Below the pieces are notes generated by a model. The model was not told the DNA's origin. It did no database searches and saw only the letters and a program-made list of their open reading frames with translations. Both the position numbers and the translations under genes were made by a program. Shown one piece after another: positions 20,191 through 35,327 of a stretch of DNA of 64,000 nucleotides. Source of the DNA: Candidatus Hydrogenedentota bacterium (GTDB lineage: Bacteria > Hydrogenedentota > Hydrogenedentia > Hydrogenedentales > SLHB01). The stretch is from NCBI GenBank assembly GCA_016215105.1, contig JACRLJ010000052.1, positions 1 through 64,000 on the forward strand. Reading direction: 5' to 3'. Every line of letters begins with the position of its first letter. Within the stretch, counting starts at the first letter, position 1.

Positions 20191-21402
20191 TTAGATTCGC
20201 AGGAAGATTTTGCGCCGATACATCCAGAACAGGATAAGCCACATGGTGAGCAAGACGGCGGCGCCGTGAAAAAACGGCTCGTAGCCGGCGCCGAGGAATT
20301 TGAAGAAGTCTTGTCCGAGGAAGGTCTTGAGATTAGTTCCTATGAAGCCTCGGAGGGTTTCGGTGAGGCAGTACGCCGCGATTGAATTCATGCCAATGAC
20401 GGTAAGCGGGAAGGTCCATTGCTTCACCTGAGCCCAGTCGATTACGGCGTAGAAGACGGCGAGCAGAAGTAAGCACCATCCGCCGCTGAACAGGGTCCAA
20501 CTTGGAGTCCAGATCTTCTTGACAACGGGGCAGATACCGAGCGCGCCCAAATTCCAGCCGACGGCGAGCGTCACGAGTCCTGTGATGGCGAGCCATCGAA
20601 CCTTCTCGTACGGTGAACGTTCACTACGGAGCACGTTGCCTCCAAGGAGACCGAGGATCATTGTGCCCAGGGTGGGAATGAAGCTAAGCGTGGAGTAGCC
20701 GCCGCCGTTACGAATGAAGGTCTCCTTGCGAGGGAATAGGTTGAGGAACCAGGTGTCGAAGGCCCACGCAAGATTGGTATTGAGATTCCAGTGCGCGGCG
20801 AATCCTGTCGCGTTGTACTTCCAATCGGGCGTCAAGCCGATCTTGGCCCAGTTGAAGTTAGGGCCGGGCAAGGGATAGAGCGCGAACGCCAACCAGTAAC
20901 CAACGAGCAGCGCGGCCAATGCGCCCCATTGCGCGCGCTGTGATCCGAATCCGAGAAGGAAGAGAAAGCCATAGCCGAGGCCGATTTGAGAAAGCGTGTC
21001 CTCGAAAGTCCAATTGGTTTGGACAGCGCTATTCGAGCGTAGCGCGACGCCGAGTAGGACAAGCACAAGCGCGCGCCAGAACGCGTGCAGGGTAAGACGC
21101 GCCTTGGACTGGCCCTTGGCGAGCCGGGCAGCGATGGAGAACGGTAACGCGACGCCGACAATAAAGGTAAAGGACGGTTGGATTAGATCGTGCAAGTGAC
21201 AGCCGAGCCATTCGACGTGGGACTGGTGCGTCGCGAGGAACTTCCAAAATGCGCTGGACGGGAACGCTTCGTACACACGGTTGAAGTGAAGCACTTCCGC
21301 CATCAACAGGAACATTACAAATCCGCGGTAAGCGTCCAGCGACACCAAACGCGCCGGTTCGGACTGGGACGGGGGCTGAGGTATTTTCTGTTTGACACTC
21401 AC
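20191..21402 (-). CDS. Multi-span membrane acyltransferase (HGSNAT/DUF5009-like)
   Basis: 403 residues with about ten membrane helices. The N-terminus has [20 protein letters not shown], followed by [18 protein letters not shown] and [10 protein letters not shown], the pattern of the heparan-alpha-glucosaminide N-acetyltransferase-like family. The GTG at 21402 gives an N-terminus like the family; the longer open frame overlaps the DinB gene and is a shadow. Expected role: transfer of acyl groups to a sugar across the membrane. A second, ruined copy of the 5' end of this gene lies at 23290, which shows that the locus was once duplicated. Confidence 0.85.
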
Positions 21403-22697: not shown

Positions 22698-23290
22698 TCA
22701 GCGGCCTGACGCTACAGGCTTGCTGGTGATCAACCCGATTCCCCGCCCGTCCTTCCCGCAAGCGCAGTAGTACAAATAGTAGGTATCGTCTGCGGGGTTG
22801 TAGACCAGCGAAATCTTGTGCTCGTATTGCTTATCGTGGCCGGAAGGATTTCCGCCGGCCTTGTAGAGGGGTTCGGGGTGCGCGGTCCAGTGGAGCAGGT
22901 CACGGGAGAAGGCGATCATGATGTGGGCGCCTCCCTTGCCTACTCCGAAGTAGAAAATGGTCCAGTGATCGCCGTCGCGAAAGACTTTGGGGTCGGACGC
23001 GAACTGCTCATCGTAGCCGCCCTTGCGCACGGGCACGACGGGTTTGGCTGTGTGGCGGGTCCAGTCCTGGAGAAAGGAGGGTTGAGTGAGGTCATGGAGA
23101 TGACATCCGAGCCAATCGACGTGGGACTGGTGCGTGCCCAGGAACTCCCATAAACGGTTTCCCGGGAATGCTTTGGCAACCTCTCTGAAGCGGAGCACTT
23201 CCGCCATGAGCAGGAACATCACAAATCCGCGGCAGGCGTCCAGGGAGGCTAGACGCGACTGAGGCGGAGGAGTCTTCTGCTGACAGTCAC
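22698..23290 (-). pseudogene. Chimeric pseudogene: acyltransferase 5' end joined to glycosidase 3' end
   Basis: From the GTG at 23290 the sequence follows the acyltransferase of 21402 (shifted frame [42 protein letters not shown]). One base is missing just after codon 3, so the true frame hits a stop at once. Near 23070 it switches abruptly to the last ~120 residues of the propeller glycosidase of 25146 (DWTRHTAKPVVPVRKGGYD to GRGIGLITS). The 3' part is nearly identical to that gene over 347 bases. This is a recombination scar between duplicated genes. The open 174-residue frame is unlikely to give a folded product. Confidence 0.88.
22721..23067 (-). repeat. 347-bp direct repeat, copy 1 (glycosidase 3' end)
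   Basis: Near-identical to 25160-25506 in the same orientation and of equal length. The two copies bracket about 2.1 kb with the PIN toxin pair and the TPR-like gene, so recombination between them would delete that segment. Confidence 0.85.
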
Positions 23291-24259: not shown

Positions 24260-25153
24260 GTGCGGAAACTTAAGCTGGCATTGCTTATTATCGCGGCCGT
24301 GGCCATTATGCTGGTATGCGTTGTGCTGCTCAAGCTCGCGGCTCAGCGGCAGGATATTAGGTCCCGCGGCCCTTTGACGATCGAAGAGATCAACAGAGTA
24401 GCCGCCAAATGGGGACCGGCGCCTCAGGCCAATCCGGCGAAGCTTTCGCACTCAGATCCGACTCGGATAGATTCTAGCCAGCCGGCCAAGTTGCTTACCG
24501 AAATTCCTCCCGCTGTTCTCGACGACGGCGCCGGGAACGCTGCTTCCGCCTCGACCGGTGACTCGCTAGTAGACCATCCCACGCTGAGAGGAACCTTGAC
24601 GCAGACCGAGAAGGAACACATGGCTGTCGGGTACCGGCAACTATACAAAACGCGTATTGGAACGCGTCTTGGAAGTCTTATCGTACCAAGCATGGAGTTT
24701 ATGGCAGTTGCGCTTGGGGGCGTGGGGTTAGAGAAAGACCTGGGACACCAGCTCTTTGAGGCCGCTGAAATTGCCTACCACAATACGGCGGACTGGGAGA
24801 CCGCGAAGCGACTGTATAGACAAGCCCTCGATTGCCGTTCCAATACAAGACACACCGCGCAAGTATGCTATATCCGTTTGGCTTGGATGGAAGATGATCC
24901 CAAAGTAGCCGATAGGCTGCTCGAGCTTGCTTGCCCGAGCGGTGATGAATCGCCCTATGTCCTTACGGAGGCAGCGAGTCTTGCCTATCTAACGGGCAGT
25001 CGAGAATTGTTCGACTACTACTTTGACCGCCTCCAACAACTGGATCCCCAACAAGCCGAGTGTTTTCGCTCGTATCGGAGGGGGCCCGAGGGTCGGCAAA
25101 CCTTCGAAATCATCAGTATGATGATCGGCACGGAGGGGAGGACGGCTAATTGA
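24260..25153 (+). CDS. Membrane-anchored TPR-like protein, unknown function
   Basis: 297 residues with a GTG start nine bases after GAAAGGAGG. One N-terminal membrane helix (LALLIIAAVAIMLVCVVLL), a disordered Ser/Ala-rich stretch to about residue 110, then a helical part with TPR-like units (AAEIAYHNTADWETAKRLYR, VADRLLELA, then AASLAYLTGSRELFDYYFDR). Its last 8 bases overlap the end of the convergent glycosidase gene. I do not recognise the family. The layout suggests a periplasmic scaffold. Confidence 0.75.
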   Translation: MRKLKLALLIIAAVAIMLVCVVLLKLAAQRQDIRSRGPLTIEEINRVAAKWGPAPQANPAKLSHSDPTRIDSSQPAKLLTEIPPAVLDDGAGNAASASTGDSLVDHPTLRGTLTQTEKEHMAVGYRQLYKTRIGTRLGSLIVPSMEFMAVALGGVGLEKDLGHQLFEAAEIAYHNTADWETAKRLYRQALDCRSNTRHTAQVCYIRLAWMEDDPKVADRLLELACPSGDESPYVLTEAASLAYLTGSRELFDYYFDRLQQLDPQQAECFRSYRRGPEGRQTFEIISMMIGTEGRTAN

Positions 25154-26243
25154 CAGTCCTGCTGGTGATCAACCCGATTCCCCGCCCGTCCTTCCCGCAA
25201 GCGCAGTAGTACAAATAGTAGGTATCGTCTGCGGGGTTGTAGACCAGCGAAATCTTGTGCGCGTATTGCTTATCGAGGCCGGAAGGATTTCCGCCGGCCT
25301 TGTAGAGGGGTTCGGGGTGCGCGGTCCAGTGGAGCAGGTCACGGGAGAAGGCGATCATGATGTGAGCGCCGCCGTGGCCGACGCCGAAGTAGAACATGGT
25401 CCAATGATCGCCGTCGCGGAAGACCTTGGGGTCGGACGCGAACTGCTCATCGTAGCCGCCTTTGCGCACGGGCACGACAGGATTGGCCGTGTGGCGGGTC
25501 CAGTCCACGAGATTGGAGGAGCGCGCTAATCCTGTCTGTTCGGTTCCGCCCTGCGCTGCGTTGTAAAAGCTGTAATACCCGCCGTCGTGCTCGACGAGCC
25601 AGGGCTGATAGATGCAACTGCTTTCCCAGGCGCCGCAATCGGCATCGTGGATTGAGAGAATGGGTGAGTTCTTGGCGCGTTTCCAGGCGAGGCCGTCTTC
25701 GCTGACCGCGACGCCTTCGTAGCCGGGACGGAGCTCATAGCCGCCTTGACGGGGGTAACACCCGTACAGCGTCCAGTACTTGCCATTGTGCTTCTTGAGC
25801 GTTCGGGGCGCCTTGACGTCGTAGGACTCGTAGAGGTAGGCGCCGACGACGCAGCCGCCGTTGTCGAATTCGCCTTTGGGTCCGAAGCCCATGGCGAGGC
25901 GCGGGTTCCTCCAATGAATCAGGTCATCGCTCTCGGCTACGAAGCTGTTGTAGCCGTGCCCATCGAACGCGATGAAGCTCATATACCAGAGATTGGGTCT
26001 TCCAGGAAGCTGGTAAACCGTCGGGCAATCGGTGTTGTGGAACGATTCATAGCCGGGTATTTTCGGTTCGCTCGCGATGACGTGTTCGGGCCAGTACGAC
26101 CAGCCGCGATACGGGGCCGACCACCGGTCAAGCGCGGCGCTGTCGATTTGCATGTCCGTACCAATAGCCATGATTTTCTCCTGCGCGACTGCTGGGCCTA
26201 GGACGCACATAAATAGTACAAACATGCGCCAGATCTTCGTCAT
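25146..26243 (-). CDS. Secreted five-bladed propeller glycosidase-like protein (GH43/GH32 type)
   Basis: 365 residues: signal peptide (MFVLFMCVLGPAVAQ), then blades with repeated motifs of GH43/GH32-like enzymes (NTDCPTVYQLPGRPNLWYMS, AESDDLIHWRNP, VSEDGLAWKR, ARSSNLVDWTRH, FASDPKVFRDGDHW, AFSRDLLHWTAH). The ATG at 26243 overlaps the stop of the upstream gene (ATGA), so the two form one operon. The last 347 coding bases are duplicated at 22721. Expected to act on a polysaccharide side chain; the substrate is unknown. Confidence 0.82.
   Translation of the reverse strand: MTKIWRMFVLFMCVLGPAVAQEKIMAIGTDMQIDSAALDRWSAPYRGWSYWPEHVIASEPKIPGYESFHNTDCPTVYQLPGRPNLWYMSFIAFDGHGYNSFVAESDDLIHWRNPRLAMGFGPKGEFDNGGCVVGAYLYESYDVKAPRTLKKHNGKYWTLYGCYPRQGGYELRPGYEGVAVSEDGLAWKRAKNSPILSIHDADCGAWESSCIYQPWLVEHDGGYYSFYNAAQGGTEQTGLARSSNLVDWTRHTANPVVPVRKGGYDEQFASDPKVFRDGDHWTMFYFGVGHGGAHIMIAFSRDLLHWTAHPEPLYKAGGNPSGLDKQYAHKISLVYNPADDTYYLYYCACGKDGRGIGLITSRTVN
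25160..25506 (-). repeat. 347-bp direct repeat, copy 2 (within intact glycosidase)
   Basis: Near-identical partner of 22721-23067. This copy is in its native context at the 3' end of the glycosidase gene. Confidence 0.85.
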
Positions 26244-27721: not shown

Positions 27722-28426
27722 GGCATGCTCCTTTTGGCGGCGTCGAAGCCGCCATTCCTGCGCGAAATATTGAATGCGCCGGCGAATGACTCGTCCAATT
27801 CTCTTAGCGGTTGCGGCCGTCCCGCCGCGCGGCTGTCCGCAGCATACCGAATTTGGACGGAAAGACAAAAGTTTGAGGCAGCCACCTCCGTGCAGCACGT
27901 GGCGCAGGAGGAGTCCCAAACGCGTGAAGGCGGATTTATTGACTGCAAATCTGTTTGTATCATCCCACAGCTACTGGACTTACGGTTTTTCCAGTTTTCT
28001 CATTTCTTGACAAATCGGCATTCTGACGGTATGATCTCTCTAATTGGTCTGACGCAAAGGGCGCCACACGGTATCAATGGGAAGACTTAGGTTGGATGAC
28101 ACAAGGATCGAAGAGTGATGACGGGAATGCACGTCAGTTTCGGCGGCAAATTGTCGGCGCGCCCCGGAGACACGATTTGATGTCTGTCCGATTTGAGATC
28201 GTTGGATTAGATTGATTCGTGGCCGAAACGCGCGGACGTTCTTCCCCGCCGGGTGCAACCACCGGCAAGATTGAATCCATCTAGATTCAGGCTCATTTCC
28301 ACTATTTATTGATTCCCCGTTATAATAGGCGCCATGCGGCGCCGTTTTACGTAAGAGGCACTAATTCCACGCGCGATGCGTGACCAGTTTTTAACCTATG
28401 CCGATTGGCAAGAAAGTGAGGCGTTC
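27722..28426. other. Divergent intergenic region
   Basis: About 700 bases between the glycosidase operon (leftward) and the envelope run (rightward). It holds one good rightward promoter at 28007 and a TATAAT at 28321 without a clear -35. I see no coding sequence that I would defend; the rightward open frame at 27725-28090 has shadow-like composition. Confidence 0.55.
28007..28035 (+). promoter_or_regulatory. Strong promoter upstream of the CsgG/FlgT-like run
   Basis: TTGACA at 28007-28012 and TATGAT at 28030-28035 are separated by 17 bases. The first supported gene starts about 390 bases downstream, so it implies a long leader or a small RNA. Confidence 0.65.
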
Positions 28427-28696
28427 ATGGCCAAAGCTGTTGGGATCGTTTCGGTGCTTGTCGTGTTACTTGCGGGGTGCGCCACGCGCCACCCTGCGCC
28501 TGAGCCGGTTCCCGAACCTGTTGTGGTAGCGCCTGTAGCGCCAGCGCCTGAGCCGGCGCCGGTCGCCGCGCCGACGCCTCCCCCGGCACCAGCGGCGGAG
28601 CCAGCGCCACCGCCACCACCGGCGCCAAAGCGCGCCGCCCCCAAAGTGCGAAAGAGTTCGGGTGGCGCCGCAGCGCTCAAGGAAAGCCAATGGTGA
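28427..28696 (+). CDS. Small Pro/Ala-rich lipoprotein
   Basis: 89 residues: a signal peptide with lipobox VVLLAGC at about residue 19, then an Ala/Pro repeat tract that could span the cell wall or periplasm (EPVPEPVVVAPVAPAPEPAP), ending KVRKSSGGAAALKES. The ATG at 28427 was chosen because it opens directly on the signal. First gene of a six-gene rightward run; the next start follows the stop by four bases. The extended tract suggests a spacer or tether rather than an enzyme. Confidence 0.75.
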   Translation: MAKAVGIVSVLVVLLAGCATRHPAPEPVPEPVVVAPVAPAPEPAPVAAPTPPPAPAAEPAPPPPPAPKRAAPKVRKSSGGAAALKESQW

Positions 28697-28700
28697 CGCT

Positions 28701-29216
28701 ATGATTACGAAATCGATACACCATAGAGTTGCACTGCTTGTCGCGCTGGCGAGTTTGCTAGCTGCGCCAGTCTGGGCCGGAAACAAGATCTTGATGGAAA
28801 AAGAGGGTAAAGAACTCGTTTCCATTAATGAACAGGTGATCAAAGAATTGCCGAACGTGCAGAACAACAGCCAAGTGAAACTCGAGGCGAACGTCGTTCA
28901 GCGGGACGGGAAGACTGAGATCCATATCCAAAGCTTGTCGTTCACGCCGGAAGCAGGCGTAGGTAAGGTCGAGAACAAGGCCGCGTCCACCGCGCCCGCC
29001 GCCAGGACAGCCGAGCCGGCCGCCAAGAACGAGAAGATTACGACTGGAGGCGCGGCCGCACTTTCAAGTGACGATATGAAGAAGAAGATTGACGAATTGA
29101 AAGCGGCGCACCCGAAGGTCCGTTTCGTCGAAGTGGACAAAGCGGCCGTCCAAACGCCGGCGGCGAAATCCAATGAGAAGCCCGGCCGCGCGTTCATCGC
29201 GGAGTGGGACGATTGA
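28701..29216 (+). CDS. Periplasmic protein of the FlgT/CsgG-like run, unknown
   Basis: 171 residues with a signal peptide (VALLVALASLLAAPVWAG), then a charged, mostly hydrophilic body (NKILMEKEGKELVSINEQV, VQRDGKTEIHIQSLSF) and an Ala/Lys-rich C-terminal part with DDMKKKIDELKAAHPKVRFV. It starts four bases after the previous stop with only a weak ribosome site, so translational coupling is likely. I do not recognise the family. It may be an accessory of the LPP20/FlgT-like proteins that follow. Confidence 0.75.
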   Translation: MITKSIHHRVALLVALASLLAAPVWAGNKILMEKEGKELVSINEQVIKELPNVQNNSQVKLEANVVQRDGKTEIHIQSLSFTPEAGVGKVENKAASTAPAARTAEPAAKNEKITTGGAAALSSDDMKKKIDELKAAHPKVRFVEVDKAAVQTPAAKSNEKPGRAFIAEWDD

Positions 29217-29290
29217 GCGGACGTGAATCGGTTTCGGCAGGTTTTGGTAATCAACGAAATCCATCAGACAGACTTGGGAGAAACGAACCA

Positions 29291-30115
29291 ATGAAGAGCG
29301 TGAAGAAGAATGGAATACTGACGATAGCGCTGGCTCTGGCCCTGCTATCGCTTCCGGCCCTTGCCCAGAACAAGAAACTGATGACCGTCAACGCCGCGAA
29401 GACGCTGGCGGAACGGGCGATCGTGGAGAGCATCGTAGGACTGAAGGTGAAGAGCGCGACCCGAGTCGAGGACATGATCGCGCAATCCCATCGCGTAGAT
29501 GCGAAAACGTCGGCGGCGGTGGCGGGCCTTGAAGGCATCGAGTTTACGGATATCATTTACGATCCCGAGAAGGATGTCGCTCGGGTAACGGCGAGTATTC
29601 ACGTTGGACGAGTCAAGAATGTGCTGGACCAGAATATCGACTACGGTGACATAACCGTGGAACGCGTTGCCTTCGCGACCTCGACGGAAAGCCAGGCCGG
29701 ACCGCTCAAGGCGATGCGCGCGGCTGAGATTGACGCCTACGAGAAGCTGGCCAAGAAGCTGGTCGGGTTCAAGATTGACAGCAAGACATCGGTCGAGGAC
29801 TTTGTGCTGAAGTCTGACGTGGTGAAGTCGAAGCTGTTGGCGGCGATTTACGGAGCCAAACTCGAAAGCTACAGTTGGGACAAAGAGGGGAACGCGCACG
29901 TCCGGCTTTCGTTGAAAGCGGACTATGTGCGGGATGTCATTGGACAGAAGTTCCTTAGTGACCAACCCGAAGTCGAGGCGGAAGGCATCGGCTCTCAGGT
30001 AGATGATTTCTCGGGCACGACCCGTGGCGCCGATGGGGTCAAGGAGGGCAAGATTGCAGTTCCCACGCCTTCCTCGACAGAGTCCACTGGTGGCGCGGCG
30101 GCCAAGGCCCCCTAA
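29291..30115 (+). CDS. Periplasmic protein with two LPP20/FlgP-like domains
   Basis: 274 residues. Signal peptide (TIALALALLSLPALAQ), then two tandem units of the LPP20/FlgP fold: AERAIVESIVGLKVKSATRV to VTASIHVGRV, and AAEIDAYEKLAKKLVGFKID to VRLSLKADYV. Each unit has the pattern helix, GxxIDSxTxVxDF, strand pair. Known relatives are LPP20-family lipoproteins and FlgP, a part of the flagellar outer-membrane rings in Vibrio. No lipobox is present here and no flagellar gene is nearby. Probable building block of an envelope ring or scaffold (inference). Confidence 0.8.
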   Translation: MKSVKKNGILTIALALALLSLPALAQNKKLMTVNAAKTLAERAIVESIVGLKVKSATRVEDMIAQSHRVDAKTSAAVAGLEGIEFTDIIYDPEKDVARVTASIHVGRVKNVLDQNIDYGDITVERVAFATSTESQAGPLKAMRAAEIDAYEKLAKKLVGFKIDSKTSVEDFVLKSDVVKSKLLAAIYGAKLESYSWDKEGNAHVRLSLKADYVRDVIGQKFLSDQPEVEAEGIGSQVDDFSGTTRGADGVKEGKIAVPTPSSTESTGGAAAKAP

Positions 30116-30137
30116 CGTGAAACGTGAGGAGAATACC

Positions 30138-30821
30138 GTGAGTAGGATGTCGAATAGATTGCTATGGTGCGCACTGGCGATTGCCCCGTTGTGTCTGGGC
30201 GTTCGCGCTTGGGCAGTGGACGAAGGTTTCACGTTCAGTGGCGCGGACCAGAAACGGGCGCAGGAAGACGCGGACAAGAAGGCTAAGGAAGCCGACGAGA
30301 TACAAGCGTTACTTAGCACACCCGGTGGCGCCGGACTCAAGAATAAGAAGACCGCCATGGTGATCGCCGAACGGCATGAGGGCCGCACGGTCAGTCAGGC
30401 GGCCAAATACGGGCCGATGTATTCGGAGATTAACCAGCGCCTGCGCCGCTTGGGTCTCAAGACCTACAGTCAGGAAGAGATTACCGCCCAGATTGCACAA
30501 GCGCAACGCGAGGCGTTCTTCTCGAACGACCCGGACTCGGCGATTAGCGCCGCATCGCGGCTCGGAGCGAGCTTCTTTATCAAGGGGCTGATCGAGTCCC
30601 GTGCGCAAGTAAACCCGGTCGCCAAGGTAAACGAGGTACACGTAACCATCGCATTTACATTGGTGGACTCCTCTGGGCGCGTTCTTGCCAGCGTGAACGC
30701 CGAGAACGAGGCGTGGTCGGGTTCGGATACATTGTCCACTGCGCTCGATCTCGTCCGAGAGAAGGCTGACTGGGTAGTCGCCAAGTTGTATGGTGATTAT
30801 TGTAGAAACGCAAAACGCTAG
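30138..30821 (+). CDS. Periplasmic FlgO/CsgG-fold-like protein
   Basis: 227 residues from a GTG at 30138 with AGGAGA five to six bases upstream. Signal peptide ends near VRAWAV; a helical Lys/Asp-rich stretch follows, then an alpha/beta domain with KTAMVIAERHEGR, YSEINQRLRRLGLKTYS, AASRLGASFFIKGLIES and VTIAFTLVDSSGRVLASVNA. This strand-helix order resembles the periplasmic domain shared by CsgG, LpoB and FlgO/FlgT, which helps to place proteins in the outer envelope. Assignment is by pattern only. Confidence 0.72.
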   Translation: MSRMSNRLLWCALAIAPLCLGVRAWAVDEGFTFSGADQKRAQEDADKKAKEADEIQALLSTPGGAGLKNKKTAMVIAERHEGRTVSQAAKYGPMYSEINQRLRRLGLKTYSQEEITAQIAQAQREAFFSNDPDSAISAASRLGASFFIKGLIESRAQVNPVAKVNEVHVTIAFTLVDSSGRVLASVNAENEAWSGSDTLSTALDLVREKADWVVAKLYGDYCRNAKR

Positions 30822-30886
30822 TTCGCAGCGCGGCGCCCATAGACCGCTCAATCGGCAATGGGACGCGCGGCAGGAAAGGGAAAGCA

Positions 30887-32309
30887 GTGAAACGACAATT
30901 TACGAAGGGCACGAATCTGGTTAGCCTGTTTGTGTTCCTCGTGGCAATCATCACAATCATGCGGCCAGTACACGCCGCAGAAAAGGCCCCGGCAGAAAAG
31001 GCCGTCGCGGAAAACGTATAAACGCGACAAAGGCCTCTTGCTCGACGCGCTGCGCGAGGACGCGCGGAGACAGGTGGTCGAGAAAGCGGTCGGCACGTTT
31101 GTTGACAGTTCGACGCTCGTGGAGAATTACGTTCTGGTGCGGGACCGTGTTCTCACCAAATCCAAAGGCTTGATAAAACAGGTCATTAAGGAAAGCGATC
31201 CTTGGGAGGGCAAGGACGGTTTCATGCACATACTCCTGAAGGCCGAAGTGTACATTACGAAGATCGGCGACGCGCTGAAGGAAATGTCGAAGACCGAGCG
31301 TGTCAGCCTGATCCGCGAGTATGGCAATCCTAAGATTTCGGTGGCAATCGTTGCGCGGGACGCTGATCGCGCATCGACGACAGCCAAAGAACGTTCCCCG
31401 ATTGCGGAGAATGTGCTCATCGAGCAGTTGACCAAGTTTGGGTACCGCGTCTGGTCTGAGGACGAGAATGCTACCCTCAAGGCGGAGGTGTCCGCGAAGG
31501 AGAAGCCGGGTAACGCCGTCGAGACCAATATATCGGTATCGCAGCCGAAAGCGGCCGACTTCTCGATCGTCGGCGAGGCGAAGTTTAAGAAGCTCTCGGC
31601 CAAGCTGCCGCCATCGAATATCGAAATAACGAAGTATGTGCTGACCTCCCTGTCAGTTAAGTGTGTGAATAACCACACCGGCGAGATCATCCTGTCGAAG
31701 AATGAAGTGCCCAAGAACAAGAGTTGGGCAGATGAAGATGTGGCCGTCGAAGAGATAGGCAAGATCGTCGGTCAGGACTTCACGAAGGAATTCTTCGAAG
31801 AGCACCTGATGGAGCCGTCGAAAATATACCAGCTCAAGGTGGCGGGCTTGCCCGATTACGACACGGGAACCCAGTTCAAGAAGGAGATGATCGGGCTGCG
31901 TCCGGTGCTCAATGTGGACTTCCGCGATTTCAGCGCGGATGGAGTCTCGAACTACGAAGTGACTTTCGCCGGTGCGCGCGGCAATTTCACGGACTTGGTC
32001 AATGACACGGTCATCAAACCGCTGAATGCGAAGTTTGGCGGTAGCTACTTCAAACTGTCCTCCGCCCAGGGCGAAGTGGTCAGCGTTCAATTTGCGTGTG
32101 ACAAGAATCCGAAGGAAGTGTTGAGCCGGTTTGACACGGCCGCGCCCGCCGCGCTCGCGCAGGCATCGCCGGAACGGCTGAAGGAATTAGTAAAGGACGA
32201 GGCCACCATGAAGAAGGTTGCGGAGGTGAATCCGGATGCGGTAAAGAAACTCGCGGACACCGGGAACGCCGCAGCTGGTACCACGCTAAAGTCAGTCAAG
32301 GATTTTTAG
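30887..32309 (+). CDS. FlgT-like periplasmic protein, frameshifted at an A4 run
   Basis: A GTG at 30887 after AAAGGG opens a signal peptide (LVSLFVFLVAIITIM, ending PVHAAEK). That frame stops at 31019. The homologous body continues in the next frame: KGLLLDALREDARRQVVEKA, GTFVDSSTLVENYVLVRDRV, SKGLIKQVIKES, which is close to the FlgT N-terminal domain. A CsgG-like middle domain (KISVAIVARDADRA) and a long C-terminal part follow. One A too many in AAAA at 31011-31014 would explain the break, giving AETYKRDKG. Restored length is about 473 residues. Without repair the product would lack a signal peptide. Confidence 0.8.
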
Positions 32310-32346
32310 AACCCTGGGAAACAATCGAGAACGGGAGAGCAAGAGA

Positions 32347-33132
32347 ATGAAAATGTTGTCTATGCGATTACTGGTTGTGATTATGCTGGTTCTACTGGCC
32401 ATCCCTTCGGCGCTGGCTGCGGGCAAGCAGACCGCTGCGTCGAAGAAGGCGAATGCCGCGGCCGACGAAGCGATGTATCGGCCGGTCGAATATCCGAACA
32501 AAGACAAGAAGGGCCCGGTGGTCGTGGTGATTCCGGGCGAGATCAAGAGCTCAAATGCGACGTTTACCCAAAAAGTTACCGTCAACAACATCGCGGATTT
32601 TGGTGAGTTGGAGCTGGGTAATGATAACTATACCGTGCTGGAACGCAGCGATCTTGGCTCGATGATGCAAGAGCTTCAGCTTGCGGCCAATATGGGTGAC
32701 AAAGACGGGCTGAAGAAGTTCCGCAAGGGGAAGTTCGCGACGACCAAGTGGCTCATCAGGTTTGACGTGCTCAAAGCCGAGCCGGTTGCGGCCGCTAAGC
32801 AGGGCTTTGACGGTGGAGCCATCGGTTCGATCATCAGCGGATTGGGCACGGGCAAGACCTGGCGCGGCTCGCACGCCGCCGGTACGGCCGTCGGGTCAAT
32901 TGAGACCGGTGAATCGGCCGGCATCTGGATCGTTGGCATGCGCTATAAAGTAATCGACGCCGAAACGTCCGAGCAAGTCGCGTCAGCGTACAAGGAAGGC
33001 AAGATGGAAATGGGCACAAAGCACGGTTCGATGCTGGGCTTTTCAAGCTCAAGCGAAGCCGGCGTGACGCTGGATACACTGGTCCAGCGCCTGGTGCAAG
33101 ATTGCGTTCTGGATTTGGACGGCAAGAAGTAA
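32347..33132 (+). CDS. CsgG-like envelope secretion/assembly protein
   Basis: 261 residues: signal peptide (VIMLVLLAIPSALA), then a CsgG/HfaB-like core with VVVVIPGEI, YTVLERSDLGSMMQELQLAA (the clearest family match), KWLIRFDVLKAEPVA and GMRYKVIDAETSEQVASAY. In curli systems CsgG forms a nine-fold outer-membrane pore, anchored as a lipoprotein. Here no lipobox Cys is visible and no curli subunit gene is present. Gly-rich residues about 155-180 could be the membrane-spanning loops. Last gene of the run, followed by a strong terminator. Probable outer-membrane channel or assembly factor. Confidence 0.78.
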   Translation: MKMLSMRLLVVIMLVLLAIPSALAAGKQTAASKKANAAADEAMYRPVEYPNKDKKGPVVVVIPGEIKSSNATFTQKVTVNNIADFGELELGNDNYTVLERSDLGSMMQELQLAANMGDKDGLKKFRKGKFATTKWLIRFDVLKAEPVAAAKQGFDGGAIGSIISGLGTGKTWRGSHAAGTAVGSIETGESAGIWIVGMRYKVIDAETSEQVASAYKEGKMEMGTKHGSMLGFSSSSEAGVTLDTLVQRLVQDCVLDLDGKK

Positions 33133-33158
33133 GCCTATAGGCTCGAAGAAAGACCTGC

Positions 33159-33206
33159 GCCCCGGGCGGTGTGTCGGTTGACACATTGTCCGGGGCTTCT
33201 GCTTTT
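33159..33206 (+). terminator. Rho-independent terminator after the CsgG-like gene
   Basis: gccccgggcggtgtgtc (33159-33175), a 4-base loop, then gacacattgtccggggc (33180-33196): a 17-bp stem with a few wobble pairs, followed by ttctgctttt. It ends the rightward six-gene run. Confidence 0.8.
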
Positions 33207-33258: not shown

Positions 33259-34887
33259 TCAGTAATCCCCCAAGGCCTGCCCCCCCGCGTTAGGTTTGCG
33301 TGCGCCAGTTGGTTTGTCCGGCGCCGAGGGCTTCGGTTTCGCGGCCGGCTTGGGCGTGGTCTTCTTCGGCTCGGCATGGGACTCCTGCGCGGCCGTGACC
33401 GTTATCACGACACTTTGCGAAGCGCTCGACGGCGGATTGCCATTGTCGCTAACTCGAAACGTAACCGTGTACTCCCCAGAGCTCTTTGCCGGCGGCGTCC
33501 AGGTGAAAGTGCGCGAAGCCTCGTCGAACTTGGCGTCCTTCGGAGCGTCTATCCCCATACTGTACGAAAGCTTCGCGTCGGCGGGAGCGGTTGCGTTAAG
33601 CACGAACGATACAGTGTCGCCTTCGGCGACCTGCTGCGGCTCGACAGGCTCGATCGCAATCTTGGCCTTTTCGTTCACGGTGATGTTTACCGTAATCGTT
33701 TCCGTCCGCTCGGGCGTGGACCGGTCGGTCGCTGTGAAGGCTGGCGCGTAATGGCCCGCGTTGCCGCCTTCGGTCTTCCACGCGAACGCGGCCGTAGCGG
33801 GGTCGAACTTTGCCCCGGCCGGTAATTTGTCCGCAGTCACGTTAAGGTCTTTAAGCTCCGCTCCCTTTACCGCCAGCGCGAACTCGACGGTGTCTCCTTC
33901 GGTAACGACGTGTTCTTTCACGGCGTCGAGAACAAGCTTTTCTTTAACGACAGGCGTCTTGGGAGGCGCTGGAGGCTGTGGCGGAGGCGTCGCGGGCGAC
34001 GGTTCCATGGCAGGTACCGCCGGTTTGGGAGTGGTGTCCTTCGTCTCCGCGGGCTCTTGCTTCGCTTCCGTTTGGGTCGGCTGACGATGCGTCCACCAAT
34101 AATATCCCCCCGCCACCGCGCTACCCGCTATGATGGCGAACGCTACGAGCATACCTAGGATGAGCGCGAGCGCTTTTGCCGGGGCGTTCTTTTGCTCCGT
34201 GCCGCACGCCGCCGGGATTTTCAAGGACTCCTGCGGCATTGGGGCTTCCGTCTTCGGCGTGTCCACGTGGGCGGCGCCGTCAATGGCCTCGATGTCCTTG
34301 CGGAAGTCGGCCGCCGAAGGATAACGGTTTTTAGGACTCTTCTGGAGCGCCTTCATCAAAATGTTCTGCAGTTGTTTGGATATTTTTGGGTTCCGTGTAC
34401 ACGGGTCCGGGGGCTCGACATTGGTATGTGCGTTGAGCAACTGCGTATAGCTTCCCTCGAACGGGATGCTCAGAGTGAGCATCTCATACAGCGTAATGCC
34501 CATCGCATAAATATCCGCAGCCGGGCCAACCGGACCAAAACGGGACTGGTCGATTTGTTCGGGCGCCATATAGGCGGGAGTACCAGGACCGGGTCCGTCC
34601 GCTCGAGTCAGGGCGGTGCCTTCATCGGCCTCGCCAGGCTCCTGAAGCGCCTTTCCGATTCCAAAGTCCATCACCTTCGCGATTAGTTCGTTCTTATGGC
34701 CGCGAGTCACGAGAATGTTGCTGGGTTTGATATCTCGATGCAGGATTCCCCTGCTATGCGCGAAGTCCAGCGCCTCAAGGCACTGCTCCACTATGAGCAG
34801 TGCGTCCTTCTGGTCGAGTACCGGCAACGTCCCCGAGTCGGCCATCGGCACGGTTGCGCCGACCTCGGGCGTGGGCGACGTGGGCAT
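33259..34887 (-). CDS. Ser/Thr protein kinase, C-terminal part (C-lobe, membrane helix, two Ig-like domains)
   Basis: 542 residues. Kinase C-lobe with HRDIKPSN (residues 50-57), DFGIGKA (74-80), GTPAYMAPEQ (102-111) and DIYAMGITLYEML. One membrane helix follows at about 239-265 (ALILGMLVAFAIIAGSAVAG), then a Pro-rich linker and two cadherin/He_PIG-like Ig domains of about 95 residues (VEFALAVKGAELKDLNVTAD, VSFVLNATAPADAKLSYSMG), ending in a basic Pro tail. The N-lobe is in another frame just upstream (34911-35327). A seventh C in the run at 34962-34967 would join them into one protein of about 690 residues. Known of Hanks-type kinases in this layout: outer domains sense a ligand, the inner kinase phosphorylates Ser/Thr. 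Confidence 0.85.
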   Translation of the reverse strand: MPTSPTPEVGATVPMADSGTLPVLDQKDALLIVEQCLEALDFAHSRGILHRDIKPSNILVTRGHKNELIAKVMDFGIGKALQEPGEADEGTALTRADGPGPGTPAYMAPEQIDQSRFGPVGPAADIYAMGITLYEMLTLSIPFEGSYTQLLNAHTNVEPPDPCTRNPKISKQLQNILMKALQKSPKNRYPSAADFRKDIEAIDGAAHVDTPKTEAPMPQESLKIPAACGTEQKNAPAKALALILGMLVAFAIIAGSAVAGGYYWWTHRQPTQTEAKQEPAETKDTTPKPAVPAMEPSPATPPPQPPAPPKTPVVKEKLVLDAVKEHVVTEGDTVEFALAVKGAELKDLNVTADKLPAGAKFDPATAAFAWKTEGGNAGHYAPAFTATDRSTPERTETITVNITVNEKAKIAIEPVEPQQVAEGDTVSFVLNATAPADAKLSYSMGIDAPKDAKFDEASRTFTWTPPAKSSGEYTVTFRVSDNGNPPSSASQSVVITVTAAQESHAEPKKTTPKPAAKPKPSAPDKPTGARKPNAGGQALGDY

Positions 34888-34910
34888 CGTCGCAGCAGGG
34901 TCAACTGACG

Positions 34911-35327
34911 CTAATGGGACCGTAGCAGCGGACTGTACAGCCGGGACGCGCTCTGAACCGGCCCCCCAATAGGCGTACCTGTCCGCGGCCGCACGGACAC
35001 TTGACGTGTACGGTTCAGAAGCTCCGCGATGGTCTCGCCAGGAACGAATTCCATGACCAGGATCACGTTCTCCTCGTGAACCAGCCGATCAAACAGGGTG
35101 ACAATGTGAGGGTGTGAGCCGAGCTTGGCGAGGATACGGCACTCGTTTTCGAGACGTTTATGCACCTCGGGCCTCATGGCCCACTCCTTGCGGAGAATCT
35201 TGAGCGCAACTTTGCGCTTCAATGTAACGTCTTCCGCAAGGTATACGGCGCCCATGGCGCCTTCGCCCAGCGGGGCGAGCACTTTGTACCGGTTGCTGAT
35301 CGTCTGGCCGATAAGAGCGACAGTCAT
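34911..35327 (-). CDS. Ser/Thr protein kinase, N-terminal fragment (N-lobe), frameshifted
   Basis: The ATG at 35327 opens NRYKVLAPLGEGAMGAVYLA (glycine loop), with VALKILRKE (ATP-binding Lys), a helix with ENECRILAKL, and HPHIVTLFDRLVHEENVILV. The frame then goes through VRPRTGTPIGG and ends at a stop soon after the run CCCCCC (34962-34967 on the plus strand). In the next frame the sequence goes on as AGSERVPAVQ and leads into the C-lobe. Alone, this fragment could not be an active kinase. Either the gene is broken or the run is one base short in the assembly. Confidence 0.82.
   Translation of the reverse strand: MTVALIGQTISNRYKVLAPLGEGAMGAVYLAEDVTLKRKVALKILRKEWAMRPEVHKRLENECRILAKLGSHPHIVTLFDRLVHEENVILVMEFVPGETIAELLNRTRQVSVRPRTGTPIGGPVQSASRLYSPLLRSH

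Follow-up and report, generated by a model that had tools for sequence, protein, structure and literature searches.

A run of six exported-protein genes

We analyzed a 64,000-nucleotide stretch of DNA (the window) from a 6.7-Mb draft genome of a Hydrogenedentota bacterium in 171 contigs. An initial annotation had described six consecutive genes for exported proteins, with a promoter and a terminator, as a possible undescribed envelope system. The run is real: six genes, here called g1 to g6, lie on one strand between positions 28427 and 33132, separated by gaps of 4, 74, 22, 65 and 37 nt (range, 4 to 74 nt), and all six start with a signal-peptide-like N-terminal segment, although g5 is not intact. 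The features of the locus are as follows.

28007 to 28035, forward strand: promoter-like site TTGACA-17-TATGAT (11/12 match, about 390 nt upstream of g1)
28427 to 28696, forward strand: g1, small Pro-rich lipoprotein (from its lipobox LLAGC and its length; C-terminal tail SGGAAALKESQW)
28701 to 29216, forward strand: g2, exported protein (internal TTGGAAAL motif; homologues in the related genome G044 and in Desulfovibrionia; no Pfam match)
29291 to 30115, forward strand: g3, exported tandem LPP20/FlgP-like protein (profile match to solved FlgP)
30138 to 30821, forward strand: g4, exported LpoB-like protein (FxF motif, GFTFS, at the likely mature N terminus)
30887 to 32309, forward strand: g5, FlgT-like periplasmic protein (Foldseek, hhalign; 5' end disrupted)
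32347 to 33132, forward strand: g6, CsgG-fold protein (Foldseek; Gly/Ala/Ser-rich insert)
33159 to 33196, forward strand: terminator-like hairpin (17-pair stem, 4-nt loop, T-rich tail TTCTGCTTTT)
33259 to 35327, reverse strand: Ser/Thr kinase with an Ig-like extracytoplasmic part (Pfam Pkinase, 2.1e-29; He_PIG, 3.4e-18)

At the place of the proposed terminator, a strong hairpin with a T-rich tail sits 3' of g6 and separates the run from the convergent kinase gene. The proposed promoter, the site at 28007 to 28035, is a consensus match only, promoter-like sites in total showing no excess over shuffled sequence. A TATAAT was also seen by eye at 28321 to 28326.

Folds of flagellar ring and curli pore proteins

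None of the single window proteins scored above the cut-off when compared directly with Pfam, NCBIfam or the PDB. The fold assignments needed relatives and profiles, and the genes in GC-rich relative loci were likewise located by profile searches.

The g3 profile matched solved FlgP chains with E values from 1.2e-6 to 8e-4 (1e-6 to 3e-5 for chains of 9hmf, 8z5n, and 9yfg), and the relatives of g3 match Pfam LPP20 at 2e-6, a match absent for the window protein alone. The protein is a tandem duplication with related halves (hhalign, 94%), and the window copy carries a signal peptide and lacks a lipobox Cys. For g4, Pfam scans returned LpoB, and not FlgO, which has a Pfam family of its own; the match is weak in all eight members (E down to 0.001), and the window protein, at 17.4 bits, falls under the curated cut-off of 22.3 bits. 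A Phe-x-Phe at the likely mature start is present in every g4 sequence except one that is truncated and one that was unread.

The AlphaFold model of g5 (pLDDT, 75.7) contains a FlgT_N-like domain, a CsgG/TolB-N-like domain and further alpha/beta domains. Its best PDB match is FlgT in 8z5n (Foldseek, 2e-6), a chain that we take to be the FlgT of the Vibrio LPHT ring. A direct Pfam FlgT_N match was not obtained for g5, but g5 aligns over its length with a family that matches both Pfam FlgT_N and CsgG (hhalign, 99%; E = 2e-18). A Pfam match to "Gene 1 ring forming protein" in one g5 relative (4.4e-5) was dropped because it covers only 27 residues near the signal peptide.

The g6 model, with a pLDDT of only 64, matches CsgG in 4uv2 (Foldseek, 2e-7), and Pfam CsgG is weakly matched by 5 of 10 g6 members. 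At the place of the first CsgG membrane hairpin, g6 carries an insert of about 37 residues (about 149 to 190), in which Gly, Ala, and Ser make up 52% of residues versus 29% in the whole protein (39 sequences). Model pLDDT is below 50 in this region and in residues 224 to 239, and the second hairpin region is short. Most Desulfobacterota versions of g6 are lipoproteins, unlike those of Hydrogenedentota and Burkholderiales, so the predicted mode of membrane anchoring differs between lineages.

The initial annotation had recognized folds of the kind found in flagellar outer rings and in the curli pore, and the matches of g3 to FlgP, g5 to FlgT, and g6 to CsgG bear this out, with g4 weakly LpoB-like. 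It had overlooked three features described below: the broken g5, a kinase fusion in relatives, and a common C-terminal tail.

The 5' end of g5 is broken

The signal-peptide frame of g5 begins with a GTG at 30887, encodes MKRQ...AENV, and ends at a stop at 31021, while the remainder, from about 31011, lies in a different frame with no stops inside the body of the gene. At the break point, relatives read "...TIVVSAEGLADPNADEYKRDKG" or "TIVVSAEGLADPNADE" and contain about 17 extra codons. From these alignments, a loss of about 50 nt near 31018 would appear to be the simplest reading. We considered and rejected a programmed frameshift: with about 17 conserved codons gone as well, and with kinase genes elsewhere in the assembly also split, an assembly error or a recent mutation is likelier. 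Between these two, a body without internal stops and several split kinase genes do not discriminate, and the break could be either.

The module genes stay together in three phyla

Absence of the gene order from every relative would have counted against the initial annotation, but the order recurs: 1-2-3-4-5-6 is kept in G044, from the same family as the host, and 3-4-5-6 is present in G037, where the contig end cuts the cluster. In Desulfovibrionia the order is 4-5-6-X-2-3, X being a tetratricopeptide repeat (TPR) lipoprotein, with small variations (one carrier, L101, has no detectable g2). The core 4-5-6 occurs alone in Desulfuromonadia and in one Desulfobulbaceae genome, and Burkholderiales have the order 4-6-kinase::5. 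The genes have been kept together in three bacterial phyla.

Carriers are scattered, amounting to 5 of 277 Desulfuromonadia, 13 of 247 Desulfovibrionia, and 18 of 399 Burkholderiales genomes; among 68 genomes of the host phylum, 3 have a strong g5 match and 4 a g6 match. Pairwise identities of the core genes co-vary (r = 0.79 to 0.89). In the g6 tree the bacterial groups stay apart, and Hydrogenedentota, with support of 94/75 that is not strong, pairs with Desulfovibrionia, the only other group with the extended gene set. A plasmid search returned the kinase domain only, and g6 was not found. A literature search for this combination of genes found no description, a result that does not prove absence given that most subscription journals were outside its coverage.

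Several loci contain related genes in other arrangements. An additional g6-like gene precedes the module in two Desulfovibrionia genomes (L097, 4613 to 5317; L100, 5053 to 5757). In L012 (3465 to 5929), a metagenome-assembled genome whose Actinobacteria label is doubtful, a caspase-like gene is followed by one for a g6 homologue, and a CHASE2-like gene lies close to them (domain names assigned by eye). A domain resembling GxDAKGSYLYTKYKTDIPLKG is joined, as the N-terminal part, to a g5-like domain in L017 (3416 to 5089, reverse strand), and a protein with such a domain follows the g6 gene in L013 (655 to 1755). Desulfuromonadia also encode proteins of about 370 to 450 amino acids that combine FlgT_N with a CsgG-like part and form a broad family (L036 to L058), and a TPR lipoprotein gene comes next after the gene of this family at the two loci inspected, L036 and L038.

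Lipoproteins of the extended module share a C-terminal tail

A g1 homologue heads the G044 cluster and ends in the same tail (TGGAVALKEGQW). The Hydrogenedentota g1 and the Desulfovibrionia X are both lipoproteins, and they otherwise show no visible similarity, yet their tails follow a common pattern, GG[AGS]x[APV][LIM]x[PE][GSDE][DEQN][FW]. This pattern occurs in 15 of the 5,951 open reading frames (ORFs) of the loci examined, and all 15 lie within the module operon and on its strand; the count is descriptive, as the pattern was composed after the tails had been seen. It is unlikely that two unlike proteins of two phyla would carry this tail by chance. The tail lipoprotein marks the extended version of the module, and we infer that the tail is a docking peptide.

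In Burkholderiales, g5 is fused to a transmembrane kinase

Each of the 16 complete ORFs from Burkholderiales encodes a Ser/Thr kinase motif, then a transmembrane helix, then g5, which makes g5 the periplasmic domain of a membrane-spanning Ser/Thr kinase in Burkholderiales. Because g5 occupies the position of the receptor domain, this fusion is the strongest functional clue that we obtained. Of the 18 Burkholderiales carriers, 15 have a cyclase-like gene that is convergent to the module and close to it, and both examples scanned (n = 2) combine a cyclase catalytic domain with an FHA domain; FHA domains bind phosphothreonine. A kinase with an extracytoplasmic sensor and an FHA partner was found in Burkholderiales only. 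The arrangement may be likened, in its putative way of working only, to the threonine-phosphorylation pathway of type VI secretion (TagQ/TagR, PpkA, Fha), in which envelope proteins act upstream of a transmembrane kinase and an FHA protein. It differs in that no type VI secretion genes were noticed nearby and in that the FHA protein of the module is a nucleotidyl cyclase.

The kinase gene convergent to the window cluster, which has a frame change near 34.9 to 35.0 kb (profile positions 96/95), is less telling, since the host genome encodes about 25 such kinases and no kinase gene adjoins the cluster of G044. Its link to the module is uncertain. At least two further kinase genes are split in the host genome.

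Relation to flagella, curli and cell wall synthesis

FlgT-, FlgP-, and FlgO-type proteins are parts that the flagellum adds to its outer rings. The initial annotation had placed the run in a setting without flagellar or curli genes. Immediately around it this holds, as we saw no flagellar gene beside the module in the neighborhoods that we read. CsgF was detected in none of 41 carrier genomes, with a positive control in E. coli. Taken as a statement about the organism, "without flagella" does not hold: the host carries a run of flgF, flgG, flgA, flgH, flgI, flgJ, and flgL on another contig (names resting on the FlgI family match and a reading of neighboring ORFs), and FlgI is encoded by all 23 of the non-Burkholderiales carriers tested (4/4 Hydrogenedentota, 13/13 Desulfovibrionia, 5/5 Desulfuromonadia, and 1/1 Desulfobulbaceae).

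For the version in the window, the main rival explanation is an accessory ring of the host's own flagellum, resembling the H-ring of Vibrio and encoded apart from the main flagellar genes. The Vibrio H-ring consists of FlgO, FlgP, and FlgT (PMC7990780), and the module likewise holds a FlgT-like g5 (by fold and profile), a FlgP/LPP20-like g3 and, as the third exported protein, the LpoB-type g4. That every non-Burkholderiales carrier is flagellated keeps this explanation viable. The co-occurrence is weak, however, in genomes that are kin to each other: FlgI is common anyway, in 47 of 68 Hydrogenedentota, 194 of 277 Desulfuromonadia, and 12 of 13 Desulfovibrionia (a small sample), and most flagellated relatives lack the module. 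Unlike the H-ring, the module has no flagellar genes alongside and no FlgO Pfam match among its partners, and it adds the CsgG-like g6 and the tail lipoproteins. In Burkholderiales, moreover, g5 belongs to a kinase, and FlgI is present in 12 of 18 carriers, compared to 15 of 20 non-carriers; it went undetected in the other 6 carriers, some of whose genomes may be incomplete. With only 12 of 18 carriers encoding FlgI, the kinase version seems not to depend on flagella. For the version in the window, we consider a flagellar accessory ring rather unlikely, at perhaps one chance in four.

The export channel envisaged by the initial annotation fared worse than the ring. Here g6 would be an outer-membrane pore, as in curli, with the other proteins as chaperone, cap or substrate. 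The core fold of g6 is indeed that of CsgG, the channel that works with CsgE and CsgF, its Gly-rich insert sits at the position of the first CsgG hairpin, and the short g1 and g2 could be exported. Yet the insert stands where that hairpin would be, the second hairpin region (224 to 239) is short, and no hairpin pair of CsgG length is confidently predicted in g6; a lipid anchor is found in some lineages only, and not in Hydrogenedentota or Burkholderiales. No recognizable substrate gene lies beside g6, and neither in Desulfuromonadia nor in Burkholderiales does the core come with a substrate-like gene that is conserved. Together with the missing CsgF in all 41 carriers, by which the module is not a curli system, these features make an export channel improbable. 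We regard as more improbable still a regulator of peptidoglycan synthesis, in which g4 would activate a cell wall synthase and the other proteins serve as scaffold: although all eight g4 members match LpoB, the window protein does so below the curated cut-off, no penicillin-binding protein gene was noticed near the core, and TolB-N, CsgG, and FlgO fall into the same broad class of folds as LpoB. CsgG-fold envelope proteins also occur in the small Neisserial lipoprotein operons of CsgG-GNA1162 type, and the GNA1162 structure, 4hrv, is a fold match to g6; those operons are not known to have a FlgT-like or FlgP-like member or the kinase.

A putative outer-envelope scaffold

What we observed are the folds, the kinase fusion, the tail, and a gene order that is conserved; the reading of them that we prefer, at a probability of about 0.5, is a conserved outer-membrane or periplasmic scaffold, probably ring-shaped and, in Burkholderiales, coupled to a kinase as its readout, rather than a curli-type pore. 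The evidence suggests an undescribed outer-envelope scaffold, which may also act as a sensor. A ring shape is supported by the folds, which are those of the ring formers FlgT, FlgP, and CsgG, with PelC lower among the matches. The core of the scaffold would consist of the LpoB-like g4, the FlgT-like g5, and the CsgG-like g6, extended in Hydrogenedentota and Desulfovibrionia by the FlgP-like g3, g2, and a lipoprotein (g1 or the unrelated TPR lipoprotein) whose C-terminal tail would dock on the complex. In Burkholderiales, with the FlgT-like part as the extracytoplasmic domain of the kinase, the core could signal to the cytoplasm what state the outer envelope is in, the signal probably passing through the FHA-cyclase encoded next door. 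In the host of the window, such a readout would be absent or provided by another protein.

A fuller version of this scaffold is more speculative, and we hold it to be doubtful as a whole. It would be a flagellum-independent ring of FlgT-, FlgP-, LpoB-, and CsgG-type proteins that senses the outer envelope, is joined up by tail-docking lipoproteins, and in one lineage serves as the ectodomain of a Ser/Thr kinase that feeds an FHA-cyclase, with g6 inserting glycine-zipper hairpins rather than beta-hairpins into the outer membrane.

The presence of flagellar ring parts in an operon of their own, and as a kinase sensor in another phylum, suggests a general kit for envelope rings or sensing. Flagella may have borrowed these folds or lent them, which offers a testable route to the origin of flagellar outer rings, and the kinase version could represent a new class of envelope-to-cytoplasm signaling.

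Elsewhere in the window, the ORF at 22698 to 23219 (reverse strand) is chimeric: one part shares 94% identity over 367 nt with the ORF at 25146 to 26243, and the other part about 75% over 147 nt with the ORF at 20191 to 21402. It could be a rearrangement, a pseudogene or a misassembly.
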